Origin: Spirochaetales bacterium Spiro_07
GTDB lineage: Bacteria; Spirochaetota; Spirochaetia; Treponematales; Treponemataceae
Direction of reading: 5' to 3'
Assembly: GCA_001603145.1 (NCBI GenBank)
Contig: LVBI01000007.1
Span: 58,455 to 122,454, forward strand
Length of the DNA: 64,000 nt
Part shown: positions 2,145-24,429 of the stretch, in pieces
How positions within the stretch are numbered: the first letter of the stretch is position 1
How the letters are laid out: each line of letters starts with the position of its first letter
Notes under the pieces: model-generated
The model's database searches: none
The model's input: only the letters and a program-made list of their open reading frames with translations
What the model was told of the DNA's origin: nothing
Position numbers and translations under genes: made by a program

Positions 2145-3248
2145 ATGAGTTTTAGCGGTGATAGTGAAAAAAGGCGACATGTTTTTATTGTTGATGACGA
2201 AGCGACGAATCTGAAAGTCGCCGAAAACGTGCTCCGCAATTATTTTCAGCTGACACTGCTAACTTCAGGCAAGGAACTTCTTCAGATAATTCACAGAACA
2301 AAGCCCGACCTTCTGCTTCTCGACATTGAAATGCCCTCAATGAGCGGTTTTGAAGTCATTGAAAAGATGAAGCAAGACCAGCAGCTGCAAGATATTCCTG
2401 TTATTTTTTTGACCGCCAAAAACGATGTTGAAAGCGAACTTCGCGGGCTTACGCTCGGTGCGCTTGACTACATCAACAAGCCGTTTTCTCCGCCGCTTCT
2501 GCTGAAACGCATTCAGCATTACCTTGCAATGGTTGAGCAAAAAAAAGAGCTTCAATCTTTCAACAAGAACCTCAACGACATGGTGCGCGAAAAGACCGAG
2601 ACAATTCTTCAGCTTCAGTATTCAATTTTAAGCACAATCGCAAACCTTGTAGAATTCCGCGACGTGAACACGGGCGGCCACATTGAGCGCACGCAGCATT
2701 ATCTTTCGGTGCTGCTCAAGGCGATGCGCGAGCAAGGCACATATGCAGAAGAAGTCTCGACATGGAAGATTCCGCTTTTGATTCAGTCTGCGCAGCTGCA
2801 CGACGTTGGGAAAATTGCCATTTCAGATACAATCTTAAAAAAAGAAGGAAAGCTCACGCCAGAAGAAACTGAAATAATGATGAAGCACACATCTTTCGGT
2901 GCAGAAATCATAAGAAAGATTTCAATTTCAGCTTACGGCACAGAATTCTTGAATTATGCAGAAGTCTTGGCGCAGCACCACCACGAAAAATGGGACGGCA
3001 CAGGCTACCCGAACAAGCTGAAAGGCACAGACATTCCGCTTGCGGGCAGAATCATGGCGATAGCCGACGTTTACGATGCGCTTGTTTCGGCAAGACCATA
3101 CAAAAAGGCATTTACTCACGAAGAAGCGAGCAGAATCATAATCGAAGGCAGCGGCACTCATTTTGACCCCACCCTTGTTGAAGTGTTCAAGTCTGTAGCT
3201 GATAAATTTCAAGAAGAAAAAGACACAACTCTGCTTGATTTTGTATAA
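2145..3248 (+). CDS. Response regulator with C-terminal HD-GYP domain
   Basis: Receiver domain (VDDEATNLK, LLLDIEMPSMSG, FLTAK) plus HDVGKIAI and HHEKWDGTGYP motifs. Confidence 0.93.
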   Translation: MSFSGDSEKRRHVFIVDDEATNLKVAENVLRNYFQLTLLTSGKELLQIIHRTKPDLLLLDIEMPSMSGFEVIEKMKQDQQLQDIPVIFLTAKNDVESELRGLTLGALDYINKPFSPPLLLKRIQHYLAMVEQKKELQSFNKNLNDMVREKTETILQLQYSILSTIANLVEFRDVNTGGHIERTQHYLSVLLKAMREQGTYAEEVSTWKIPLLIQSAQLHDVGKIAISDTILKKEGKLTPEETEIMMKHTSFGAEIIRKISISAYGTEFLNYAEVLAQHHHEKWDGTGYPNKLKGTDIPLAGRIMAIADVYDALVSARPYKKAFTHEEASRIIIEGSGTHFDPTLVEVFKSVADKFQEEKDTTLLDFV

Positions 3249-4235: not shown

Positions 4236-5535
4236 TGGGCTGCAACTTTTCAGCCTGGCTTGCGTAAATGCTTTCCATTACAAGCGCGGCCTTTGCGCAA
4301 TAACGACGGTCAATCGTATAGAACGCAAACATTACATCCTGCACATAAATCTGGAAATTGTCGCCCGGAGTATAAGGCACATAACGCACCTTCATAACGT
4401 CAAATTCTATTTCTTTCTGCTCGCCGAAAAAGTCACCGCTGTAAGTGTAACCGCATTTTCTAATGTGCAGCACGCCTTTGCCGCACTTTTCTATGCCGCG
4501 CGTCTTTTTGATTTGCAAATTCGCCTCGCCTGAAGGAATCACGGTGGCGGCTTCGGAGAGAATGCGAAGCTCAACTGGAATGAATATCTCGTAATCAGAA
4601 TCTGCTTCTATAGCCTTTTTTTCTGCAAGACGCTGCGCATTATACCATTCGCCGATATGCGGGTAGAAATTCTCACTCTTGTTCCATGAAAGATGAGCAG
4701 ATTCAGTGTATTCGGCAGTGCAGCCGCAGCTTTTGCAAGTTATGCTGTTCTTGTGCGTTTCAAGCTCGAATTCTGAGCCGCACGACGGGCATCTGTAAAG
4801 AATGTTCTCAAGCCCTTTCGCACGGTTTCGGCCTTTGTAAAGATAGCCGCTTTTTTCTTGCTCGGCGAAATTGTCTACATATATAGCCTTGCCGATAGCG
4901 TCATCGATTTCTTCTATAGACATTTCCTTTATCTTTTCAGGCGTAAGCGCCATAGAAATGTCTATGTCTATAATGCCGTGCTTCAAGCATTTGCGCCACG
5001 TTGAATCGCAGAAATAAGCCCCGGAAGTGCGGATCGCAAAAACAGGCAGCTTCATCTTCTTGATGAGCTTAGCGCAGCTTTCGGGCATGTCTTTAGAAAT
5101 GCCGTTAATGACAATCTGACCTTCGGGGTAAAGAGCCAAAATTCCTTCGTTGCCCAGAATGTCGAAAGACTGCCTTATAGTCTGAATGTCAGGCTGAAAC
5201 AGGTTTTTCGGAATGGCGCGCGCCATCCTTACAAAAAAATGAAACTTTGACGCAAGATAAAGCTTTCTTGCAACTATAAATGTGATTCTTCTAGGATAGA
5301 ACGCGCGGATTGCGAACACATAATCGTAAAGGCTGTGGTGGTTGCCCACGATGATGTACGGCGGCTTGACTTTTACAAGCTCTTCGCGCACCTTGCTGCC
5401 GTGCACCTCTTTTCCGTCAGGCATTCTGTATGTAAAAAGCACCTGCCTTTTTGCAAAAGACAAAAATGAAACGATAAAACCAAATAAGTAATAAACAAAA
5501 GGATTCGGACGCTTTGTTTTTGTTCTTCTCTTCAT
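4228..5535 (-). CDS. 1-acyl-glycerol-3-phosphate acyltransferase-like protein with internal zinc ribbon and C-terminal extension
   Basis: GNHHSLYDY (HX4D), LYPEGQ motif; CPSCGSEFELETHKNSITCKSCG zinc ribbon. Confidence 0.8.
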   Translation of the reverse strand: MKRRTKTKRPNPFVYYLFGFIVSFLSFAKRQVLFTYRMPDGKEVHGSKVREELVKVKPPYIIVGNHHSLYDYVFAIRAFYPRRITFIVARKLYLASKFHFFVRMARAIPKNLFQPDIQTIRQSFDILGNEGILALYPEGQIVINGISKDMPESCAKLIKKMKLPVFAIRTSGAYFCDSTWRKCLKHGIIDIDISMALTPEKIKEMSIEEIDDAIGKAIYVDNFAEQEKSGYLYKGRNRAKGLENILYRCPSCGSEFELETHKNSITCKSCGCTAEYTESAHLSWNKSENFYPHIGEWYNAQRLAEKKAIEADSDYEIFIPVELRILSEAATVIPSGEANLQIKKTRGIEKCGKGVLHIRKCGYTYSGDFFGEQKEIEFDVMKVRYVPYTPGDNFQIYVQDVMFAFYTIDRRYCAKAALVMESIYASQAEKLQPII

Positions 5536-13172: not shown

Positions 13173-14629
13173 TACAGTTTTGCAAGCTCTTCGTTGAGAA
13201 GTTTTGTGGCTGTAGCCGGTGTGGCCTTGCCTTTAGACTTTTTCATAACCTGCCCCATGAGCCAGCCCACAACATTAGATTTGCCAGACTTATAATCTGC
13301 AATCGCTTTCGGGTTTTCGGCGATTACTTCTTTTACAAAAGCCGCAATCTCGTCGGTGTTTGTGGTGGCGGCAAGCCCCTTCTCTTTCACGATTTCAGAC
13401 GGCATCTTTGCAGTTGCAATCATTTCAGCAAAAACGTCTTTTGCCTGTTTAGAAGTGATTGTGCCGGCGCAGACAATGTTGACCAAATCTGCAATGTGAT
13501 CAGGCTTAATCGCAATTTCAGTTATATCCTGCTCTTTTTCGTTGAGCACGGCGAGCAGCTCTGCAAGAATCCAGTTTGCGGCCTTCTTCGGGTCTTTAGA
13601 CTTTTTGGCGGCTTCTTCAAACCAAAGCACAAGATTGCGCGATGATGTCAAAGTCTGAACGTCAAAGTCTGAAAGGCCGTATTCTTTCTTTAAGCGCTGA
13701 CGCTTTGCTTCCGGCAGCTCGCCGACCTTTTTGCGTGCTTCTTCAACAAGCTCGCGCGAAACGGTGAACGGCTTAATGTCCGGCTCCGTCGTAAAGCGGT
13801 AGTCAACGAATGAGTTCTTTGTACGCTGAATAACCGTTTCGCCCTTAACTTCGTCCCAGCCCATCGTACGCTTAAAGCCGAGCACAAATTCCTGACGGTC
13901 TGTGTCAAATTCAGCAAGCTGACGCTTAACTTCATAAGAACATGCGTCACGGATTGAGCGGAACGAGTTCAGGTTCTTGATTTCTGAAATCGGCGTTCTG
14001 AATTCCTTGCCGTTTTCCCAAATCTTAAGGTTAATGTTCGCGTCACAGCGCATGTTGCCTTCTTCAAGGTTTCCTTCCGTAACACGTACATAGCGCAAGA
14101 TTTCCTGAACTGTCTGCATGAAAAGCGCAGCTTCTTCCGGCGCATTCATGTCTGGCTTGGTGACAATTTCAATAAGCGGTGTGCCGCTGCGGTTATAGTC
14201 GATATAGCTGTGCGCGCCCTCAAGGTGCAAGCTCTTGCCTACGTCTTCTTCAAGGTGAATACGCTCAATGCGCACGCGCTTGTAGCTGCCGTTTTCAGGC
14301 AAATCTACATAACCGTCTGTGCAGAGCGGCACGTCATATTGCGTAATCTGATAGCCTTTAACCAAGTCAGGGTAAAAATAATGCTTTCTGTCGAATTTCG
14401 TAAATTCTGCGATGTTGCAGTTAAGTGCAAGACCTGCAACCGCGCCAAGCTCTACATAGCCTTTGCTTATGCGCGGCATCGCGCCCGGCAAACCCAAGCA
14501 GACAGGGCAGACGCGCGTATCAGGCATTCCGCCGTAACGGTTTTCGCAAGAGCAGAAAGCCTTTGTCTTTGTCAGCAGCTGACAGTGAATTTCGCAGCCA
14601 ATAATTACTTCGTATTTATCTACACTCAT
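13172..14629 (-). CDS. gatB: Asp/Glu-tRNA amidotransferase subunit B
   Basis: YEVIIGCEIHCQLLTKTKAFCSC...CPVCLGLPGAMP. Confidence 0.96.
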   Translation of the reverse strand: MSVDKYEVIIGCEIHCQLLTKTKAFCSCENRYGGMPDTRVCPVCLGLPGAMPRISKGYVELGAVAGLALNCNIAEFTKFDRKHYFYPDLVKGYQITQYDVPLCTDGYVDLPENGSYKRVRIERIHLEEDVGKSLHLEGAHSYIDYNRSGTPLIEIVTKPDMNAPEEAALFMQTVQEILRYVRVTEGNLEEGNMRCDANINLKIWENGKEFRTPISEIKNLNSFRSIRDACSYEVKRQLAEFDTDRQEFVLGFKRTMGWDEVKGETVIQRTKNSFVDYRFTTEPDIKPFTVSRELVEEARKKVGELPEAKRQRLKKEYGLSDFDVQTLTSSRNLVLWFEEAAKKSKDPKKAANWILAELLAVLNEKEQDITEIAIKPDHIADLVNIVCAGTITSKQAKDVFAEMIATAKMPSEIVKEKGLAATTNTDEIAAFVKEVIAENPKAIADYKSGKSNVVGWLMGQVMKKSKGKATPATATKLLNEELAKL

Positions 14630-16164
14630 TTTGATGACCCCGCAACTTTTGCGATTTCTGAAGCAACTTCAGGATGTGCTTCGTGCCAAGCCTGCGCAAC
14701 CTGCAATAATTCAGCGTCTTTGAAATGTGCGCCTGTAATCTGAATGCCTATCGGCAGCCCTTCTTTTGTAAGCCCCGCCGGAACAGAAACTGAAGGAACG
14801 CGGGCAAGGTTTACGAATGTCGTGAACAAGTCTGAAAGATACATCGCCATCGGGTCGTCAACCTTTGCACCAAGCTTGAACGCGCTCGTCGGGCTTGTCG
14901 GGCAAAGAATCAAGTCATATTTCTTGAAGACTTCGCTTATGTCGCGCTGAATGCGTGCGCGCACCGTCATAGCCTTTTTGTAGCAGTCGCCTGAAAAGTT
15001 AGAAGAAAGCACGTAGTTGCCGATGATGATTCTTCGCTTTACTTCCGCGCCGAAACCTTCGCTTCGGGTCTTTACATAAAGCTCATCGTAGCCTTCGCCG
15101 GGGTCTTTGCGCGCGCCGTAGCGGATGCCGTCGAAGCGGCTCAAGTTAGAAGCAGCTTCTGACAGCGCAATAACGTAATAGCACGCAATCGCCGCATCAA
15201 GCACCGGAATCTCAACAGTTTCTACTGTTGCGCCCTGAGCTGTGAACCACTTTTTAGTTTCTTCAAACCTTTCCATTATTTCAGCATCAAGGCCGTTTGT
15301 TTCAAGAAACTGCTTCGGAATTGCAATTTTCAAGCCTTTAATTGATGCGGCTTCAAATTTGCCAGTTTTCAGCATGTCTTTGCAAGGCGTAACGTCTGTG
15401 TCTGCCGAAGTGTCATCGTAAAAGTCTTCGCCGGCCATAACAGCAAGCGGCAGCGCAATGTCGGCAGGCTCTTTGCCCAAAAGCCCAACCTGGTCAAGCG
15501 ATGAACCGAATGCAACAACGCCCCAGCGGCTCAATGTGCCGTAAGTCGGCTTGTAGCCGTAAATGCCGCAATATGCAGCCGGAAGGCGGACAGAACCGCC
15601 TGTTTCAGTGCCGAGCGCAAACGGAACCTGGCCGCCAGCGACAACAGCCGCCGAACCGCCTGAGCTTCCGCCCGGAGTATAAGCGCGGTTCACCGGGTTG
15701 TGGCTTGCGCCGTAGCATGAATATTCAGTTGAAGAGCCCATCGCGAATTCGTCCATGTTCGTGCGCCCGAAAGGAACGGCACCGGCAGCAATAAGCCGCT
15801 GAATTACAGTCGCGTTATAAGGCGAAACATAGCTTTCAAGAATTTTGCTGCCGCAAGTGCAAGCCTTGCCCTGCACAGAAATATTGTCCTTTACGCCGAA
15901 AGGAATGCCGAGCAAAGGCTTTTTTTCGAACAAAGCTTTAACTGCTGCGTCGCCGCCCTTTCTTGCTTCGGCGATTTCAGCATCGCATGCGGCTGCTTTT
16001 GCGGCAGCGTCTTCGTAAAGGTCTATAAAGCCTTTGAGAGGCTCTGCACTTTTGTTATCTTCCGTAACGATTTTCGTATATTCTTCAACAAGTGCCGCGC
16101 TCGTTACCTTGCCGGAAACAAGCATGTCGCGCACCTGCATCAGTGTCAGTGTACTAAAGTTCAT
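14626..16164 (-). CDS. gatA: Asp/Glu-tRNA amidotransferase subunit A
   Basis: Amidase signature GGSSGGSAAVVAGGQVPFALGTETGGSVRLPAAYCG. Confidence 0.96.
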   Translation of the reverse strand: MNFSTLTLMQVRDMLVSGKVTSAALVEEYTKIVTEDNKSAEPLKGFIDLYEDAAAKAAACDAEIAEARKGGDAAVKALFEKKPLLGIPFGVKDNISVQGKACTCGSKILESYVSPYNATVIQRLIAAGAVPFGRTNMDEFAMGSSTEYSCYGASHNPVNRAYTPGGSSGGSAAVVAGGQVPFALGTETGGSVRLPAAYCGIYGYKPTYGTLSRWGVVAFGSSLDQVGLLGKEPADIALPLAVMAGEDFYDDTSADTDVTPCKDMLKTGKFEAASIKGLKIAIPKQFLETNGLDAEIMERFEETKKWFTAQGATVETVEIPVLDAAIACYYVIALSEAASNLSRFDGIRYGARKDPGEGYDELYVKTRSEGFGAEVKRRIIIGNYVLSSNFSGDCYKKAMTVRARIQRDISEVFKKYDLILCPTSPTSAFKLGAKVDDPMAMYLSDLFTTFVNLARVPSVSVPAGLTKEGLPIGIQITGAHFKDAELLQVAQAWHEAHPEVASEIAKVAGSSK

Positions 16165-16211
16165 CTATTAAACTCCGCTTTATGTAATTAAGTTCAGTAT
16201 AAAGGTGCAGA

Positions 16212-16523
16212 CTAAGCACCGCCGCCGAGAACTTTCGGAACACGGAAATAACCGTCCAAAAATTCAGGCGTAATCTTCTTAACGTCTTTCATCTCAAGAC
16301 CTGCTACAATTTCGTCTTTGCGCAGCGCGTCTGCCGTTGTTGAAGGATAAGCGTCATAAGGGTTTTCATTGTCATTATATGCTGACAATATATCGAAATA
16401 CTCAACAATCTGGTCAACCTGCGATTTAAGCACTTCCATATTTGTACTTTCCGGTGAAAGGCGGGAAAGATACAGCAACGCATCAAGTGTTGTTGAATCT
16501 ATTTTGTGTGATTCAGAATTCAT
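16212..16523 (-). CDS. gatC: Asp/Glu-tRNA amidotransferase subunit C
   Basis: Small protein directly upstream of gatA with GatC-like sequence. Confidence 0.9.
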   Translation of the reverse strand: MNSESHKIDSTTLDALLYLSRLSPESTNMEVLKSQVDQIVEYFDILSAYNDNENPYDAYPSTTADALRKDEIVAGLEMKDVKKITPEFLDGYFRVPKVLGGGA

Positions 16524-16667
16524 ATTTTCCTCGACATTCTAAAATGAGGTCAGCAAGCCGAAAAGCCCACTGCAACAGCTTATCTTAGAATATTTTGCTA
16601 TTTGTTTCAACGTATCAGCAATTTTTTGGCTTTGATTCGTGCCGAGGTTCGTTGATTCAACCGCCAA

Positions 16668-16908
16668 ATGATTGACAAATGCGGCTACGTGCGTGCATTC
16701 TTCGTGCCACCGCGAAGGCATTGCACACGCGCCCGTGCAAAAAGCAGAAGAAACCTTGCGCGCAGAAGGAATCAGCAAAATCTTTTGCCTTGTCTTCAAA
16801 GACAACGAAATTGCAAACTCATTCTGGCAAAAGCAAGGCTACACGTTGCGCACAGACTTGAACTACCGCAACAAAAGCCTGAACGCCGCCGTCCCCCAAG
16901 GCGAGTAA
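16668..16908 (+). pseudogene. GNAT-family acetyltransferase remnant (N-terminal truncation plus frameshift)
   Basis: Frame 1 gives MIDKCGYVRAFFVPP; the homology continues in another frame as REGIAHAPVQKAEETLRAEGISKIFCLVFKDNEIANSFWQKQGYTLRTDLNYRNKSLN. Confidence 0.75.
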
Positions 16909-16937
16909 ACAGCAGCGCAGAGACCATCACATTTTTT

Positions 16938-16979
16938 CGGGGCTAAAACAGTGCAAATTCTACACTTTTTCGGGGCTGA
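16938..16979 (+). repeat. 42-bp dispersed repeat, left copy
   Basis: CGGGGCTAAAACAGTGCAAATTCTACACTTTTTCGGGGCTGA; aligns by eye at 34/42 positions with 20771-20812. Confidence 0.7.
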
Positions 16980-17042
16980 AAAAAACAGGGCTGCCCGAAT
17001 AGACAGCCCTGCAATTAGCGGAAAAAGCGCAAGTTTATGCGC

Positions 17043-17738
17043 TTATTCTGAAACCTTGCCGCGCTTGGCTACGGAATTATTCATTTTTTCGATTTCGGAT
17101 TCGGCTTTTGAAACAAAGTCGCCGTAAACAGCGGCGTTCACAAGGTTCATTGCTGTGAGGTATGCCACAAGCTTGTCGTTAATGGCGGAAAGCAGCGGTT
17201 TCTTGAGAGCGGATGCACTTTCATTCTTGTTTACGTTAGAAGCTGTAAATTCATCGTTCGCCTTGTTGAACTCGTCTTGCGCGGCTCTTAAATCGCTGAT
17301 GTACGAACCAACGCCGTCAAGAGCCTTGATTGAATCAGCAAGTTCCGAAGCTTCATAATCCTTAAGCATACTTTCAATAAAAGAAGATTCGTTCGCATAG
17401 CTTTCAGCTGTAATGCCCTTATACTTGTCGAATACAGCAAGGAGCTTTTCTGCGGCGGCCTTTTTCTCTGCAATTGGAATAACCGAGTAACCGTTAAGCA
17501 AAGTGCCAAGCGAGCGGATAATCTCGTCACGTTTTACATCTGCTTCATCAAGCGTTGAAGCGATTTTGTCAGCTTTGATTGCTATTGTGATTCTTTCAGA
17601 AAGTGACTCAATTTCAGCCATTGTGCTTTTAAGGTAATCATCACCTGCAATGCCGGAATCAGCTTTGTAAAGGCGGATGATAATGTCAGAAATTGTGTCG
17701 AGTTCTGTGACACGGACTGTTGTCCTAATCTTTTTCAT
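17043..17738 (-). CDS. Conserved helical hypothetical protein (DUF6261-like)
   Basis: All-helical, Ala/Glu/Lys-rich 231-aa protein; family assignment from memory. Confidence 0.55.
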   Translation of the reverse strand: MKKIRTTVRVTELDTISDIIIRLYKADSGIAGDDYLKSTMAEIESLSERITIAIKADKIASTLDEADVKRDEIIRSLGTLLNGYSVIPIAEKKAAAEKLLAVFDKYKGITAESYANESSFIESMLKDYEASELADSIKALDGVGSYISDLRAAQDEFNKANDEFTASNVNKNESASALKKPLLSAINDKLVAYLTAMNLVNAAVYGDFVSKAESEIEKMNNSVAKRGKVSE

Positions 17739-17853
17739 AAATTTTCCCTCCTAGTTTTGAATATTTATGAAGTTATCTTAATTATAAAACATGAATTTAA
17801 AATTGTAAAATAAAAGTTAACGGAATGTTAAAATTTTAAGAGTTACGGCTATA

Positions 17854-18112
17854 AAACGTAATGATTACGATTTGCAAAATGAAAGTGAACAATCGTAATG
17901 ATTACGATTTGAGAAAATGGCAAAGTGAGCAATCGTAATGATTACGATTCAAGAAAATGACCAAAGTGAGCAATCGTAATCATTACGATTCAAGAAAATG
18001 ACCAAAGTGAGCAATCGTAATCATTACGATTCAAGAAAATGGCAAAGTGAGCAATCGTAATCATTACGATTCAAGAAAATGACCAAAGTGGGCAATCGTA
18101 ATGATTACGATT
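17854..18112. repeat. Array of seven 19-bp palindromes AATCGTAAT(G/C)ATTACGATT at 37-41 bp intervals
   Basis: Copies at 17854 (one mismatch), 17891, 17931, 17972, 18013, 18053 and 18094, with conserved 21-22 bp spacers (e.g. caagaaaatgaccaaagtgagc). Confidence 0.97.
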
Positions 18113-18146
18113 TGAAAATGCAGAGTGTACATATCACAAACCAAGC

Positions 18147-18175
18147 TTTACAAACTGTGTCATATGACTTAATCT
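18147..18175 (+). promoter_or_regulatory. Putative sigma-70 promoter for the 18236 gene
   Basis: TTTACA-17 bp-TAATCT between the palindrome array and the TTG start. Confidence 0.5.
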
Positions 18176-18235
18176 GATTTTTATAAAAACGAGAAACAAA
18201 TTATAGCGCTCTGTTTAGTGTCGAGAGAATAAAAA

Positions 18236-20182
18236 TTGGGTAGCAGGAAATCACAATCAGAATTTTTACAAAAAGCAAAAGAAACAAAGAGCTTAGAAAC
18301 AGCTTTTCCTGAGATTCTTAATGAATGGGATTACGAGAAAAATACTGAAATAACGCCAAGCACAATAAGTTCTAAAAGTACAAAAAAAGTCTGGTGGATA
18401 TGCAAGAATAAACATAGTTGGAACGCTTCGATTTATGAAAGAGTTTATCATGATAAAACAGGTTGCCCTTTTTGCTATGGAAGACTTTTGATACAAGGTG
18501 TTAATGATTTAAAAACCGTAAATCCAGTATTAGCAAAGGAATTCCATCCTACAAAAAATGGAATTGTTACATCATCAACAGTAACTGCACATTCAAATAA
18601 GAAAGTCTGGTGGATATGCCCATTAGGGCATGAATATGATTCTTCAGTGAATAAAAGAATGCTTGGACAAGGATGTCCATACTGCGCCAACAAAAGAATC
18701 CTTATAGGATTTAATGATTTATATACAAAAAGGCCTGAAATAGCAAAAGAATGGGATTATGAGAAAAATGAAGGTCTGACACCGAAAGATGTAGTTCCGG
18801 GGTCAAATAAAAAAGTCTGGTGGATTTGTTCTGTTTGCGGAAATTCTTTTCAAGCTATAATTGCGGATAGAACAGTCCGTAACAACGGATGCCCCATTTG
18901 TGCTAAACAAAAAAGAGTTAATACTCGTATAAAAAAATTAACACAAAATAATTCACTGGATGATGATAAAGATTTAATAAAAGATTGGGATTATGAAGCA
19001 AATTACCCGAAAACACCAAAAGATTATACACCGAGGTCAAATGCGAGTGTTTATTGGAAATGCCATATATGTAATTATCAATGGAAATCAAAAATATTAA
19101 ATAAAGCTAGAAAAAATGGATGTCCAGCATGTTCCAATCGTGTTGTAATTGCCGGAAAAAATGATCTTGCGACAACGAATCCTGAATTAGCCAAAGAATG
19201 GCATCCAACTAAAAATGGTGACTTGACTCCAAGCCAAGTTTCTAGGGGAAGCGGCAAGCTGGTCTGGTGGCTGTGCCCTATGGGGCATGAGTATCAAGCA
19301 ACAATCTTAACAAGAAAAGGCGGACACGGAACAGGTTGTCCAATATGCTTCAACAGACGCCAAACATCTTTTGCAGAGCAAGCAGTCTTTTATTATATAA
19401 AGAAAATTTTCCCAACTGCAATAAATGGTTATAAAGCCCCTTTTTTAGGCAAAATGGAATTAGACGTATATATTCCATCTATAAAGTGGGCTATAGAATA
19501 TGATGGCAAAGCCTGGCACAAAGAAGAAACAATCGAAAGAGAAAAGCGCAAATATGAAATTTGCAGAAAGCACGGAATAAGATTATACCGCTTAAAAGAA
19601 GAAAAGCAGACTGACAAAGAATTTGGTACTTATGACAAAGCTTTAAACACTGATGATATGTGGACACCAGAAAAGCTGAATCAAACAATATATTATCTAT
19701 TATTAGATTTATGTCACAATCCATTCGCAATAACTTTTGATATTGATGTTGAGAAAGACAGATTTGCAATACAAGAAAACATGCAGGTAAAAATCGAAGA
19801 TTCAATTGCTACCAAATATCCTTTAGTAGCTCAAGAATGGGATTATGATAAAAACGGTGCGTTAAAACCAGAGATGGTTTCTCATGGTATGCATATGAAA
19901 GTTTGGTGGAAATGTTCTAAATGTGGTAATAACTTTCAAGCCGCAATAAGCCATAGATGTACTGGAACAGGATGCCCGAAATGTGGCATGAAAAAAAGCA
20001 GAGAAGTCCGTATGAAAAAAGTAGCGTGCATTTCATTGGAAACTGGTGAAGTAATAAGGATTTATAATTCAGCTACGGAAGCATGTAATGAACTGAAAAT
20101 GAAATCTGTTGGTAATGTAATTTCTGTCTGTAAGGGTAACCGCCCTAACGCGGGCGGTTTTTCATGGAGATATGTGGATTAA
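18236..20182 (+). CDS. Multi-zinc-ribbon (DUF4379/treble-clef) protein with Vsr/PD-(D/E)XK-like nuclease and C-terminal NUMOD1-like segment
   Basis: Six repeats of the form EWDYEKN..TP..v..GSnKKVWWiC..CG..f.a.i..R...gCPiC; nuclease core FLGKMELDVYIPSIKWAIEYDGKAWH...KYEICRKHGIRLYRLKE; C-terminus KKVACISLETGEVIRIYNSATEACNELKMKSVGNVISVCKGNRPNAGGFSWRYVD. TTG start. Confidence 0.85.
   Translation: MGSRKSQSEFLQKAKETKSLETAFPEILNEWDYEKNTEITPSTISSKSTKKVWWICKNKHSWNASIYERVYHDKTGCPFCYGRLLIQGVNDLKTVNPVLAKEFHPTKNGIVTSSTVTAHSNKKVWWICPLGHEYDSSVNKRMLGQGCPYCANKRILIGFNDLYTKRPEIAKEWDYEKNEGLTPKDVVPGSNKKVWWICSVCGNSFQAIIADRTVRNNGCPICAKQKRVNTRIKKLTQNNSLDDDKDLIKDWDYEANYPKTPKDYTPRSNASVYWKCHICNYQWKSKILNKARKNGCPACSNRVVIAGKNDLATTNPELAKEWHPTKNGDLTPSQVSRGSGKLVWWLCPMGHEYQATILTRKGGHGTGCPICFNRRQTSFAEQAVFYYIKKIFPTAINGYKAPFLGKMELDVYIPSIKWAIEYDGKAWHKEETIEREKRKYEICRKHGIRLYRLKEEKQTDKEFGTYDKALNTDDMWTPEKLNQTIYYLLLDLCHNPFAITFDIDVEKDRFAIQENMQVKIEDSIATKYPLVAQEWDYDKNGALKPEMVSHGMHMKVWWKCSKCGNNFQAAISHRCTGTGCPKCGMKKSREVRMKKVACISLETGEVIRIYNSATEACNELKMKSVGNVISVCKGNRPNAGGFSWRYVD
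20138..20162 (+). terminator. Terminator-like hairpin inside the 3' end of the nuclease gene
   Basis: AACCGCCC-TAACGC-GGGCGGTT followed by T-tract, within codons before the stop at 20182. Confidence 0.6.
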
Positions 20183-20194
20183 GCAAACATTACA

Positions 20195-20524
20195 TTAAGA
20201 ATCCAAAAGCGTTACGTTAATTAAAATATTTCCGTTCCTGTCTTGCGAGAATTCACAGTTACTAAAATCACAAGTATCTTTATTTCCATTGGTGTAAACA
20301 AATACAATATAATCGTTATAACAATTTATAGAGCTGATGCTGTTTTTATTTAATACCGACCTTTCAACGATATTACCACCTTTTTCTTGAAAATTGAAAA
20401 CTATGTAAGTTCCTCTTTCAAAAAGGATTTCTGCCATTTTTTCACAAGCATCAATTCTATTTCTTTCTGCAAAGCACAAGGAACTAAAAACTAAAACAAG
20501 TGTAATTAAAAAAGCTCTTTTCAT
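20195..20524 (-). CDS. Small predicted secreted protein
   Basis: Signal peptide MKRAFLITLVLVFSSLCFAERN; RBS (ggagg) upstream of the trimmed ATG. Confidence 0.65.
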   Translation of the reverse strand: MKRAFLITLVLVFSSLCFAERNRIDACEKMAEILFERGTYIVFNFQEKGGNIVERSVLNKNSISSINCYNDYIVFVYTNGNKDTCDFSNCEFSQDRNGNILINVTLLDS

Positions 20525-20547
20525 ATTCAATCCTCCAAAATATTTTG

Positions 20548-20643
20548 CTAAGATACCTTTTGGCTTTCGCCTTTTTCGTAGCCTTTGTCTTTCCATTCTT
20601 CCGCAAATTTCTTCGCTGCTTTCTGCTGTTCAATTTGTGTCAT
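20548..20643 (-). pseudogene. N-terminal remnant resembling MmeI/YeeA-type (type IIL-like) restriction-modification methyltransferase
   Basis: 31-codon ORF MTQIEQQKAAKKFAEEWKDKGYEKGESQKVS* preceded by TATAAT-like sequence; resembles the conserved AKxFaxxWKgkGyEKgexQkFW start of this family, cut off before the FW. Confidence 0.5.
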
Positions 20644-20770
20644 GTGGTTATTATAGCAGATTTTCTTAGAAATTGGCAGAAAACTTGAAGGGCAAAGAAG
20701 AAATTGTCTTTCCTCTGAGTGCAGATGTGCCTATCCACTGACCGCAGATGCATCACTAATGAGAATTATT

Positions 20771-20812
20771 CTGGGCTGAAATGACGCGAATTCTACATTT
20801 TTTCGGGGCTGA
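20771..20812 (+). repeat. 42-bp dispersed repeat, right copy
   Basis: CTGGGCTGAAATGACGCGAATTCTACATTTTTTCGGGGCTGA, same orientation as 16938-16979. Confidence 0.7.
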
Positions 20813-20837
20813 CGAACCGTAAACAAGCTGAAAGCTT

Positions 20838-21623
20838 TTACAGCTCTTTCAAGTTATTATCAACGCTTGTATCAGCATTGTCAGAACGATTTTTCTTTCC
20901 TTTGAGGCTGTTTTCTGCTGCAACCAGCTTATAGTTAATTGCCTTTCCATTAGTCAACACCCACTTGAAAGCTCTAATTGGCGCTGTGTCTTCAACCTTG
21001 CTTTTCCACACATTCAGAGCATCAAATCTGCGCTGCTTCCATGCGATGACTTTATCATAAGCGGCGGCAATTGGCTTATTGAGACGCATATTTCCTATCG
21101 TCGTCCATATCATATCGATAACGAATATGCACCATAGCACTATGCAAGCTATAAGTCTGATATTATACGGTATGCTCTTTGCCACAGCGCTCAATCCGGG
21201 ATGAACCCATTTGACCATTACCATAAGTGCTATTCCGAAAAACAAACCCGCCACAACGCTTATTCTGCCGTCAAAGTTAAGCGGATAATAGCTGTAATCC
21301 CAATAACGCTTATGGAAAAGCGCTTCCATGCTTATGCTGGTTATAAGCTCAACTATACTTGTCACCGTTCCAGCCAATATTATAAGAAGCCACCATTCTT
21401 GTATGGGATGGAACAAATCATAGCTGAAAGTGCACACCATGCAATAAATCGGACACAGCGGCCCGATGAAGACACCCCTGTCCATGAACTTGCCCTGCTC
21501 ACAGAGCGAAAAAATGGTAGACTCGTAAAACCAGCCAATAAATGCGTATATAAATGCCACTAAAGTCCATGCAGGAAAATCCAATCCTGCAAAGAGTTTT
21601 TCAATCAAAGTTAGTTCATTCAA
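20838..21623 (-). CDS. Putative ABC-transporter type IV / CmpB-like membrane protein
   Basis: Multi-TM; FIYAFIGWFYESTIFSLCEQGKFMDRGVFIGPLCPIYC is typical of PF06541-type proteins. Confidence 0.8.
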   Translation of the reverse strand: MNELTLIEKLFAGLDFPAWTLVAFIYAFIGWFYESTIFSLCEQGKFMDRGVFIGPLCPIYCMVCTFSYDLFHPIQEWWLLIILAGTVTSIVELITSISMEALFHKRYWDYSYYPLNFDGRISVVAGLFFGIALMVMVKWVHPGLSAVAKSIPYNIRLIACIVLWCIFVIDMIWTTIGNMRLNKPIAAAYDKVIAWKQRRFDALNVWKSKVEDTAPIRAFKWVLTNGKAINYKLVAAENSLKGKKNRSDNADTSVDNNLKEL

Positions 21624-21668
21624 TTTAATCTGTCTCCTGCCGTCATTTTGAAACGAACAATTTCGGGG

Positions 21669-23972
21669 CTAGTCTTTTACGCGCATAAGCGAGCTTGCGC
21701 AATGTTCAGGCATGAACTGCTTTTTTGCACCTGACTCAAACGCCACGTATATGCTCAAATCGCCTTCGATATATGATGCTTTGCAGACAAGGCCGTAGCC
21801 GAAATCATCGTGATAGACTTTCGTGCCGGGCTTCCACCGCTCAAAAAGCGGGTCTGTTTTAGGCGTTTCACCGCCGTTCAGCACTTTCTGCCCTGCATTC
21901 AGCTTCCGCTCCCCTGCAAAGCTGAACCTTGCCGGCTTACGACCGAGCACTTCCACAGATTCGCGCTTAATTTCAGCCAAAAACGGGCTTGGGCTCATCC
22001 ATTCAGTGCGGCCGTAAAGGCGGCGCGAAGCCGTTGTTGTCAGATAAAGCTCATCGCGGGCGCGCGTAATGCCAACGTAAAACAGCCGCCGCTCCTCTTC
22101 AAGCTCTGAATCAACCTTGTCTTCGCGCGGAAAAATGCCTTTTTCTATGCCGGTGATTATTACGCGCGGAAATTCAAGGCCTTTGGTGTTATGCAGCGTA
22201 ATCAGCGTAACAGCATCGCTTGTGTCTTCAGCCTGAGTTACGGCGCGGTCTAGCTCGATGTGGTCAAAGAAAAGCGCAAGCCCTGCCCTAGTCTTTGGGT
22301 ATAAAGCCGCGCTGTTCGCAAGTTCCTGCATGTTCGCCACGCGCTGTGTGCCTGCAATTTCGTCTTGCGCAGAATGATATTCGCCCAAGCCAGAAGCCGA
22401 TATGACCTTTTCGATAAACGAAGCGAGCGTTTTTGCTTTTTCAAGCGGTGCATTTGAGAGCATCTGCTCTTCAATTGCAATCTGCGCCATGTCGGCAACT
22501 TCCTTTGACACAGCAGGTTCGCCATTTTCAGCCGATTTATCAAGCTCGGCGGCAAGGTTCTGCATTATCTCAAGGAATTGGAGTACGCCTTTTTTGGCTT
22601 TTGCCGGAATTGGCAGCGCTTCATCTGCACACGCTTCAAGAATGCTGCCGCGCAACACAGGCCGCTGTTCTGGCGACATTTCGAGCGTGCCATAAGTTGA
22701 GCGCGCAAAATCTATGATTTTCTGCTGGCTTGAGTTGCCCACACCGCGCAAAGGCTTGTTTACAACGCGCGCAAAGCTGATTTCATCTCTTGAATTGAGC
22801 ACAAGCGCAAGATAAGCGAGAATGTCTTTTATTTCTTCGCGGTCATAGAATTTAAGCGAACCGACAACGCGGTATGGAATTTTTCTGTTTAAGAACTCTG
22901 TTTCAAAGCCAAGCGACTGCGCGTTGGTTCTGTAAAGCACAGCCCAATCGCTGTAAGGGCAGCCTTTGCGGTATGCGGCTTTTATCATTTCGGCGCAAAA
23001 CGCAGTTTCTTCGTCTTGGTTTGCGAGGAACACAGCTACAGGCTTTTTGCCTTCGCCGCGCTCTGCTTTCAGCGTCTTGCCGAGCCGCCCCTTGTTGTTG
23101 CTGATAACTTCATCCGCAATTTTCAAGACCGGCGCAACAGAGCGATAGTTCCGCTCAAGCTTTATAAGCTCTGCACCTTTAAAGTTCTCTTGAAACGTAA
23201 GAATATTCTGCACTTCTGCGCCGCGGAAGCTGTAAATCGACTGGTCATCGTCACCGACAACGCACACATAAGTTTCTGGTCCGGCGAGCACTTTGAGAAG
23301 CTCAAACTGCGCCACGTTAGAATCCTGATACTCGTCAATCATTATCACCTGAAAACGGCGGTGCATCTGCTCCGCAATTTCTGGGTTTTCTTTCAAGATG
23401 CGCACAGGCAGCGCAATCAAATCGCCAAAATCGGCGTTACCTGTTTCATGCAGCCTGTCCTGATATTTCTGGTAATAATCTGCGAAATTCGGGTCTTCAT
23501 CGATTTCAGTGAGGTCGCTGTCTGGCAGCAGGCAATAGTCTTTTGCGCGCGAAATAAGATGTGTATAATGCGCGCACTGGTTGTGCGTCAGCTCAGGCGC
23601 GACCTTGCTTAGCAGCGTGAGCATGTCAGTGTCATCATAGATTGTAAAATTCGGGGCAAGCCCTGCATATTCAGCATAAACGCGCAAAAACCAAGAGCCG
23701 AAAGAGTGAAACGTTCTTATCTGCGCAAACTGTGCGTTTTCGTTGAGGCGGCACGCCCGTTCGCGCATCTCGTTTGCTGCTTTTTTGGTGAAGGTAACGG
23801 CCAGAATTGTGCGAGGGTCTGTGCCCTGCTCTATGAGCCACGCAATTTTGGTTGTTATTACGCGCGTTTTGCCCGAACCTGCACCTGCAAGAATCAGCAG
23901 CGGAGAACCTTCGTGCATAACAGCCTGGCACTGTTCAGGGTTGAGCAAGCTTAAATAATTATCTGATTGCAT
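21669..23972 (-). CDS. uvrD: UvrD/PcrA/Rep-type superfamily 1 DNA helicase
   Basis: LNPEQCQAVMHEGSPLLILAGAGSGKTRVIT, DEYQDSN, VVGDDDQSIYSFRGA, TLHNTKGLEFPRV. Confidence 0.93.
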   Translation of the reverse strand: MQSDNYLSLLNPEQCQAVMHEGSPLLILAGAGSGKTRVITTKIAWLIEQGTDPRTILAVTFTKKAANEMRERACRLNENAQFAQIRTFHSFGSWFLRVYAEYAGLAPNFTIYDDTDMLTLLSKVAPELTHNQCAHYTHLISRAKDYCLLPDSDLTEIDEDPNFADYYQKYQDRLHETGNADFGDLIALPVRILKENPEIAEQMHRRFQVIMIDEYQDSNVAQFELLKVLAGPETYVCVVGDDDQSIYSFRGAEVQNILTFQENFKGAELIKLERNYRSVAPVLKIADEVISNNKGRLGKTLKAERGEGKKPVAVFLANQDEETAFCAEMIKAAYRKGCPYSDWAVLYRTNAQSLGFETEFLNRKIPYRVVGSLKFYDREEIKDILAYLALVLNSRDEISFARVVNKPLRGVGNSSQQKIIDFARSTYGTLEMSPEQRPVLRGSILEACADEALPIPAKAKKGVLQFLEIMQNLAAELDKSAENGEPAVSKEVADMAQIAIEEQMLSNAPLEKAKTLASFIEKVISASGLGEYHSAQDEIAGTQRVANMQELANSAALYPKTRAGLALFFDHIELDRAVTQAEDTSDAVTLITLHNTKGLEFPRVIITGIEKGIFPREDKVDSELEEERRLFYVGITRARDELYLTTTASRRLYGRTEWMSPSPFLAEIKRESVEVLGRKPARFSFAGERKLNAGQKVLNGGETPKTDPLFERWKPGTKVYHDDFGYGLVCKASYIEGDLSIYVAFESGAKKQFMPEHCASSLMRVKD

Positions 23973-24429
23973 TAATTCTGATTTTCTTTTTTGTTTCTGG
24001 TTTCTGCACGGCGGCCAGTTTCTTTTTTCTGCTCATTTCAAGCTGATTCTTTACATGCAGCAGAATTTCAGCCGGTGCAATCGGCTTAAGAATATAATCG
24101 TTTGCGCCTGATTTGATAATCTGAGAAACAATGTCCTCTTTTTCTACGCCGGTCAAAAAAATAACAGGCACGTCTTTTGTTTCTTTGTTTTGCTGCATCT
24201 TTTCATAGACTTCAAAACCAGAAACTTCAGGCATATTTATATCCAAAATCACAAGATCAACTTTATTTTCTGATAAAAACTTTAAGGCAGCTTTGCCGGA
24301 ATTAAGCGTGACAACTCTATAATGTGCTTTTAACGAAGACATAACGTGAACGTTCATAACTGAATCGTCGTCTACTGTTAAAATCAAAGGCAGTTCTTCA
24401 ACTAGAGTTTCTTCTTGAGCATCTATCAC
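23959..24429 (-). CDS. Stand-alone response-regulator receiver protein
   Basis: LTVDDDSVMN, VILDINMPEVSGFEVYE, VIFLTG, YILKPI. Confidence 0.9.
   Translation of the reverse strand: MIDAQEETLVEELPLILTVDDDSVMNVHVMSSLKAHYRVVTLNSGKAALKFLSENKVDLVILDINMPEVSGFEVYEKMQQNKETKDVPVIFLTGVEKEDIVSQIIKSGANDYILKPIAPAEILLHVKNQLEMSRKKKLAAVQKPETKKKIRINAIR

Follow-up and report, generated by a model that had tools for sequence, protein, structure and literature searches.

A probable free-standing homing-type endonuclease with DUF4379 modules lies beside an independent palindrome array in a spirochaete accessory island

Gene content between gatC and pcrA

The stretch of DNA analysed here, 64,000 nucleotides long and referred to as the window, contains an accessory insert (16615-21670) with gatC on one side and a UvrD/PcrA-type helicase gene (pcrA) on the other. 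Inside the insert, two direct repeats bound a block with the following features, some of which were compared with the congeneric genome G004:

16926..16979, no strand: left direct repeat, 33-bp period, bounding the DUF6261-array-nuclease-MmeI remnant block
17043..17738, minus strand: DUF6261 gene (Pfam), 86% identical in DNA, together with the array, to G004:C10
17854..18112, no strand: seven 19-bp palindromes AATCGTAATNATTACGATT, 37-41 bp apart, a neighbour of the nuclease gene and not its partner
18236..20182, plus strand: nuclease gene (648 amino acids) with six DUF4379 treble clefs, a Vsr/EDxHD-like nuclease core and a NUMOD-like tail
18314..19354, plus strand: DUF4379 modules 1-5, overall span (Pfam)
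18314-18484, plus strand: DUF4379 module 1
18530-18694, plus strand: DUF4379 module 2
18740-18907, plus strand: DUF4379 module 3
18974-19141, plus strand: DUF4379 module 4
19187-19354, plus strand: DUF4379 module 5
19361..19615, plus strand: nuclease core, residues ~376-460, with the invariant residues and the profile match to 3r3p
19829..19990, plus strand: DUF4379 module 6 (Pfam)
20054..20167, plus strand: predicted NUMOD-like DNA-binding tail (PF22083, weak)
20195..20530, minus strand: small ORF between the nuclease gene and the MmeI remnant, without a family match
20558..20652, minus strand: remnant of an MmeI-type IIG restriction-modification gene, first 29 codons, 89% identical to the intact start in G004:C10
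20759..20812, no strand: right direct repeat, bounding the same block

The distance between gatC and pcrA is about 120 bp in genome G007, where the island is empty, and about 270 bp in G002. The spot is occupied in G004 by a PIN-domain toxin-type gene and a small ORF, and in G006 other genes are present at its helicase end, where they are separated by related repeats. The left and right repeats of the window are 54 bp long and 78% identical, and their 22-bp core was found just twice in the genome. Short direct repeats with a 33-bp period (TTTTTCGGGGCTGA) separate the gatC-pcrA gene blocks in a cassette-like manner in two genomes of the genus; they are located at 16926-16979, 20759-20812 and ~21658-21672 of the window and at L143:1737-1797 and 3099-3192.

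The gene order in G004:C10 is MmeI-type restriction-modification gene, array, DUF6261, and in the window the nuclease gene and the small ORF occupy the gap from the MmeI remnant to the array. In this comparison the nuclease gene stands in place of the MmeI gene body, rather than as a simple insertion into a clean empty site. With two genomes to compare, the 29-codon start is most readily understood as what is left of a formerly complete gene. The initial annotation had stated that there is no adjacent methyltransferase; none is adjacent, but these minus-strand MmeI-type codons persist. On contig C52 of G004 this MmeI promoter and start recur, with the coding sequence broken off after 15 codons; next come a gene that matches HNH weakly and a short array. 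The MmeI start is retained before unrelated genes, beside palindrome arrays, at two loci, window 20558-20652 and L118:2160-2230; the latter keeps the promoter region, and an MmeI start is also located at L113:580-673.

Domain structure and relatives of the nuclease

The TTG start codon of the nuclease gene is the earliest start possible downstream of an in-frame stop (ORF analysis). DUF4379 (PF14311) was found by Pfam in six stretches of the protein (E 3.7e-117), all six above the cut-off, and reading of the sequence located the zinc ligands C-x2-C/H ... C-x2-C in 6/6 modules. Five modules are N-terminal and one is C-terminal of the core, and the NUMOD-like tail corresponds to residues 607-644 (PF22083, E 6.7e-5, under the cut-off of that family). 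Among 50 aligned homologue sequences, NUMOD-type tails were recognized as PF22083 in nine and as NUMOD1 in five, and a module plus a NUMOD-like tail after the nuclease is an arrangement common to several homologues. The GC content of the gene is 0.355 vs 0.451 outside the region. What the initial annotation had read from the letters was confirmed: six zinc ribbons, five before and one after a Vsr-like core (Pfam and the core profile described below), a NUMOD tail, with a weak match, a TTG start opening a 648-aa ORF, and a gene richer in AT than its surroundings.

Residues E381, D410, E421, G424, H428 and K439 of the core are invariant in an alignment of 72 sequences from several phyla, and in a set of 82 homologues the same six show conservation of 99% or more. 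E381, D410 and H428, all conserved, are candidate members of the namesake EDxHD motif, a provisional assignment that covers the motif up to its H. Matches to DUF2726 and MTES_1575, weak and obtained with the single sequence, partly cover the core at about residues 411-460 (Pfam). Both families are restriction-endonuclease-like folds. When the profile of the core, built from 72 homologues, was compared with the PDB, the sole significant match was 3r3p, "Mobile intron protein" (E 1.1e-5), which we take to be I-Bth0305I, an EDxHD homing endonuclease. The AlphaFold model of the core (pLDDT 88.6) has the order helix-strand-strand-strand-helix-strand, and this predicted order is that of PD-(D/E)XK folds. 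Foldseek searches with the core model returned zero significant fold matches, and those with the whole protein returned matches limited to DUF4379 mitoribosomal proteins. The trypanosomatid mitoribosomal proteins mS66 and mt-SAF33 have the DUF4379 module fold in common with the window protein; unlike it, they lack a nuclease and have an RNA/ribosome role. Conservation of the nuclease residues and a structural or profile relationship of the core, both proposed as checks by the initial annotation, turned out in its favour, the latter through the profile and the model and not through Foldseek.

The PHROGs that match over the modules and the nuclease bear the names HNH or homing endonuclease (E 1.5e-43 to 1.3e-10). 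Phage relatives identified by tblastn with the DUF4379 and nuclease regions include Hef-like homing endonucleases of Klebsiella and Salmonella phages; the homing endonucleases of these phages share 25-34% identity with the window protein over a shorter coverage. The single PADLOC match of the protein is a homing endonuclease model, located at the NUMOD tail.

The architecture had been considered undescribed, but the combination of DUF4379 and a Vsr-like nuclease was already published in 2025, as DUF4379/CapR-EDxHD/Vsr-like homing endonucleases in phage group I and II introns (PMC12350094, Nucleic Acids Res 2025). The group is a large outgroup of the EDxHD/Vsr homing endonucleases with thousands of unannotated relatives, and its nuclease domain is C-terminal in four intron cases, a position not given as group-defining (PMC12350094). 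Both the group and the window protein have several ~60-aa DUF4379/CapR treble-clef modules joined to an EDxHD/Vsr-like nuclease. Unlike in the intron cases, the nuclease of the window protein is not C-terminal, the sixth module and the NUMOD-like tail being located after it, and unlike the founding cases, which are located in self-splicing introns (PMC12350094), the gene is free-standing in a bacterial chromosome. Rfam searches at 14600-24000 found no intron or other known RNA around the nuclease gene. Free-standing homing genes are also common, and intron location is hence no defining feature of the group. I-Bth0305I likewise has several domains, among them a long part that reads DNA (PMC3943268); its nuclease core is related by profile to that of the window protein, but the match is confined to the core, the DNA-reading modules differ, and the window gene has no intron.

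Palindrome arrays with and without the nuclease

A palindrome search allowing at most one mismatch produced 8 hits vs 0.15 expected in shuffles. The initial annotation had reported about seven phased palindromes upstream of the nuclease gene, and seven were found at 17854-18112, separated from it by a gap of ~124 bp. Contigs C12, C23 and C61 of the window genome (G000) also hold arrays and C19 holds a short one. None of these four loci outside the window has a DUF4379 gene; the window nuclease is the sole DUF4379 gene of this genome above the family cut-off. The congener G004, which is 95% complete, has arrays on C10, C21, C22, C34 (two), C48 and C52, and the nuclease homologue is absent. At G004:C10 the array and the DUF6261 gene share 86% DNA identity with window 17046-18081, and the nuclease is absent there. 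Among 145 sampled genomes of the family, spaced palindrome pairs were found in these two alone.

The initial annotation had proposed a system that pairs the six modules with the palindrome array, a proposal to be dropped if homologues generally lacked upstream arrays, and had suggested looking for conserved palindromes in homologue neighbourhoods. Of 83 homologue loci, 78, from other bacteria and phages, offered 250 bp or more of sequence upstream, and a repeated palindrome or tandem repeat was found there in 0/78. The pairing is therefore largely refuted, and arrays without the nuclease occur in both G000 and G004. The window array is an independent dispersed repeat of the genus, which adjoins the nuclease gene by position alone.

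In a set of 74 palindromes (arrays and singles from two genomes) that was pre-selected for symmetry, position seven of the half-site is A/T in 39 and C/G in 29, and ~6 are asymmetric. This symmetric change is suggestive of selection for dyad symmetry, of the kind expected for hairpins and for sites bound by dimers. The orthologous loci G000:C19 and G004:C22 have two vs seven palindrome copies; therefore, arrays expand or contract in situ. The dispersed arrays are specific to the genus, have the core CGT[A/C]ATNAT[T/G]ACG and a period of 37-41 bp, and are nearly all intergenic. Outside the window, array coordinates include L098:4683-5023, L099:4547-4960, L100:599-899, L113:3635-3975, L114:3501-3765, L116:3440-3695 and 4858-4992, and L145:3499-3716. 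A Borrelia P83/100-family gene is present at L098:2927-4558, which would fit a spirochaete. The DUF6261 gene of the window has paralogues in G000:C30, G004:C40 and G005:C155, and a rule tying the array to DUF6261 was rejected because these three are found without an array. A tie to MmeI genes was also discarded; the second MmeI gene of G004 (C9) has no array in the stretches read.

Homologue neighbourhoods and proposed mode of spread

The nuclease gene is present in one of eight genomes of the genus, with one copy in the window genome and none in the seven congeners. Phage genomes also carry homologues. Among 142 genes adjoining homologues, only recombinases, plasmid mobilisation proteins and helix-turn-helix proteins recur, 3-5 times each; no fixed partner family, defence partner or recurrent methyltransferase was found among them, and the defence-type matches were varied. 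Such neighbourhoods resemble those of a mobile gene within accessory DNA, not those of a subunit of a fixed system.

Genes for tRNA or tmRNA located less than 500 bp from homologues number 15 vs 3.6 expected from the remaining same flanks (P 6e-6), an excess inflated by clustered tRNAs and related loci; with about ten independent loci, P is estimated at about 0.005. In 15/15 loci with a tRNA or tmRNA gene no more than 600 bp away, the closest such gene has its 3' end toward the nuclease gene. Homologue loci at such 3' ends include L014:2532-4899, L061:2603-4712, L052, L032, L071, L073 and L081. Sequence from the tRNA 3' end recurs on the far side of the nuclease gene in L061 (21 bp), L032 (12 bp) and L052 (25 bp). 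The closest homologue, in L014, sits 80 bp past a tmRNA, and a gene of G191 that is 73% identical to it is found at an unrelated place; at both sites the homologous block has TCCACCA copies at its start and end. Such repeats were not found at most other homologue loci, flanking direct repeats of at least 14 bp were found at only 7 (4 of them long), and terminal inverted repeats were not found as a general mark of homologues. The 3'-end pattern and the TCCACCA-bounded pair are suggestive of small site-specific mobile units. Since the repeats are present at few loci and the window nuclease gene has no tRNA nearby, this lead supports mobility of the family and not that of the window gene. As a tentative proposal, which we regard as possible but doubtful, free-standing DUF4379-Vsr genes may be minimal site-specific mobile units, often the gene plus ~100 bp, that insert at tRNA/tmRNA 3' ends, become flanked on both sides by a copy of the target (TCCACCA, for instance) and are able to take the place of restriction genes.

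The window gene is probably a free-standing homing-type endonuclease of the DUF4379/CapR and EDxHD/Vsr-like group, residing in an accessory island beside an independent array. We favour this reading because of the invariant nuclease residues, the sole match to 3r3p, the homing annotations of the phage relatives and the published architecture. The earlier guess of a selfish site-specific endonuclease would hold up in this form. DNA cleavage, a recognised site and copying by break repair are inferred from the fold. The six treble clefs and the NUMOD-like tail would read a long DNA site, the Vsr-fold core would break DNA without the nuclease gene, and repair from a gene-bearing copy would spread it. 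The gene would have arrived in the gatC-pcrA island and taken the place of the MmeI-type gene body.

That same position, where a congener has a restriction-modification gene, can be read as the mark of a local defence nuclease that replaced the lost MmeI gene, its zinc modules recognising foreign or modified phage DNA for the core to cut. The PIN-type gene pair received by the spot in G004 and the PADLOC-type neighbours beside some homologues agree with this explanation, which we nonetheless consider unlikely: no conserved defence partner emerged from the 142 neighbours, there is no methyltransferase, PADLOC matched the protein to a homing endonuclease model alone, and phage genomes themselves carry homologues. 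It is improbable that the gene is a relic, decayed or domesticated, of a mobile nuclease and now inactive; it is single-copy and AT-rich and shares its block with a gene remnant, but its 648-aa frame is intact and the zinc ligands and invariant nuclease residues are all kept. Least probable by far is that nuclease and array are one system, with the modules binding the array for self-regulation or as a cleavage target. Six modules ~124 bp from seven sites invite the idea, but it is opposed by the arrays that lack a nuclease at several loci of the window genome and G004, including the one beside DUF6261, and by the absence of upstream arrays among the 78 homologues; moreover, an unprotected palindrome target would presumably mean cuts at ~30 sites of its own chromosome.

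Reading the gene as a homing-type endonuclease removes one candidate defence system and illustrates that adjacency in one genome is weak evidence. Many proteins annotated merely as zinc-ribbon or DUF4379 now find a place among homing-type endonucleases. Confirmation of the 3'-end pattern at tRNA/tmRNA genes would make a single-gene nuclease unit whose target is defined a simple model for spread without introns or integrases.
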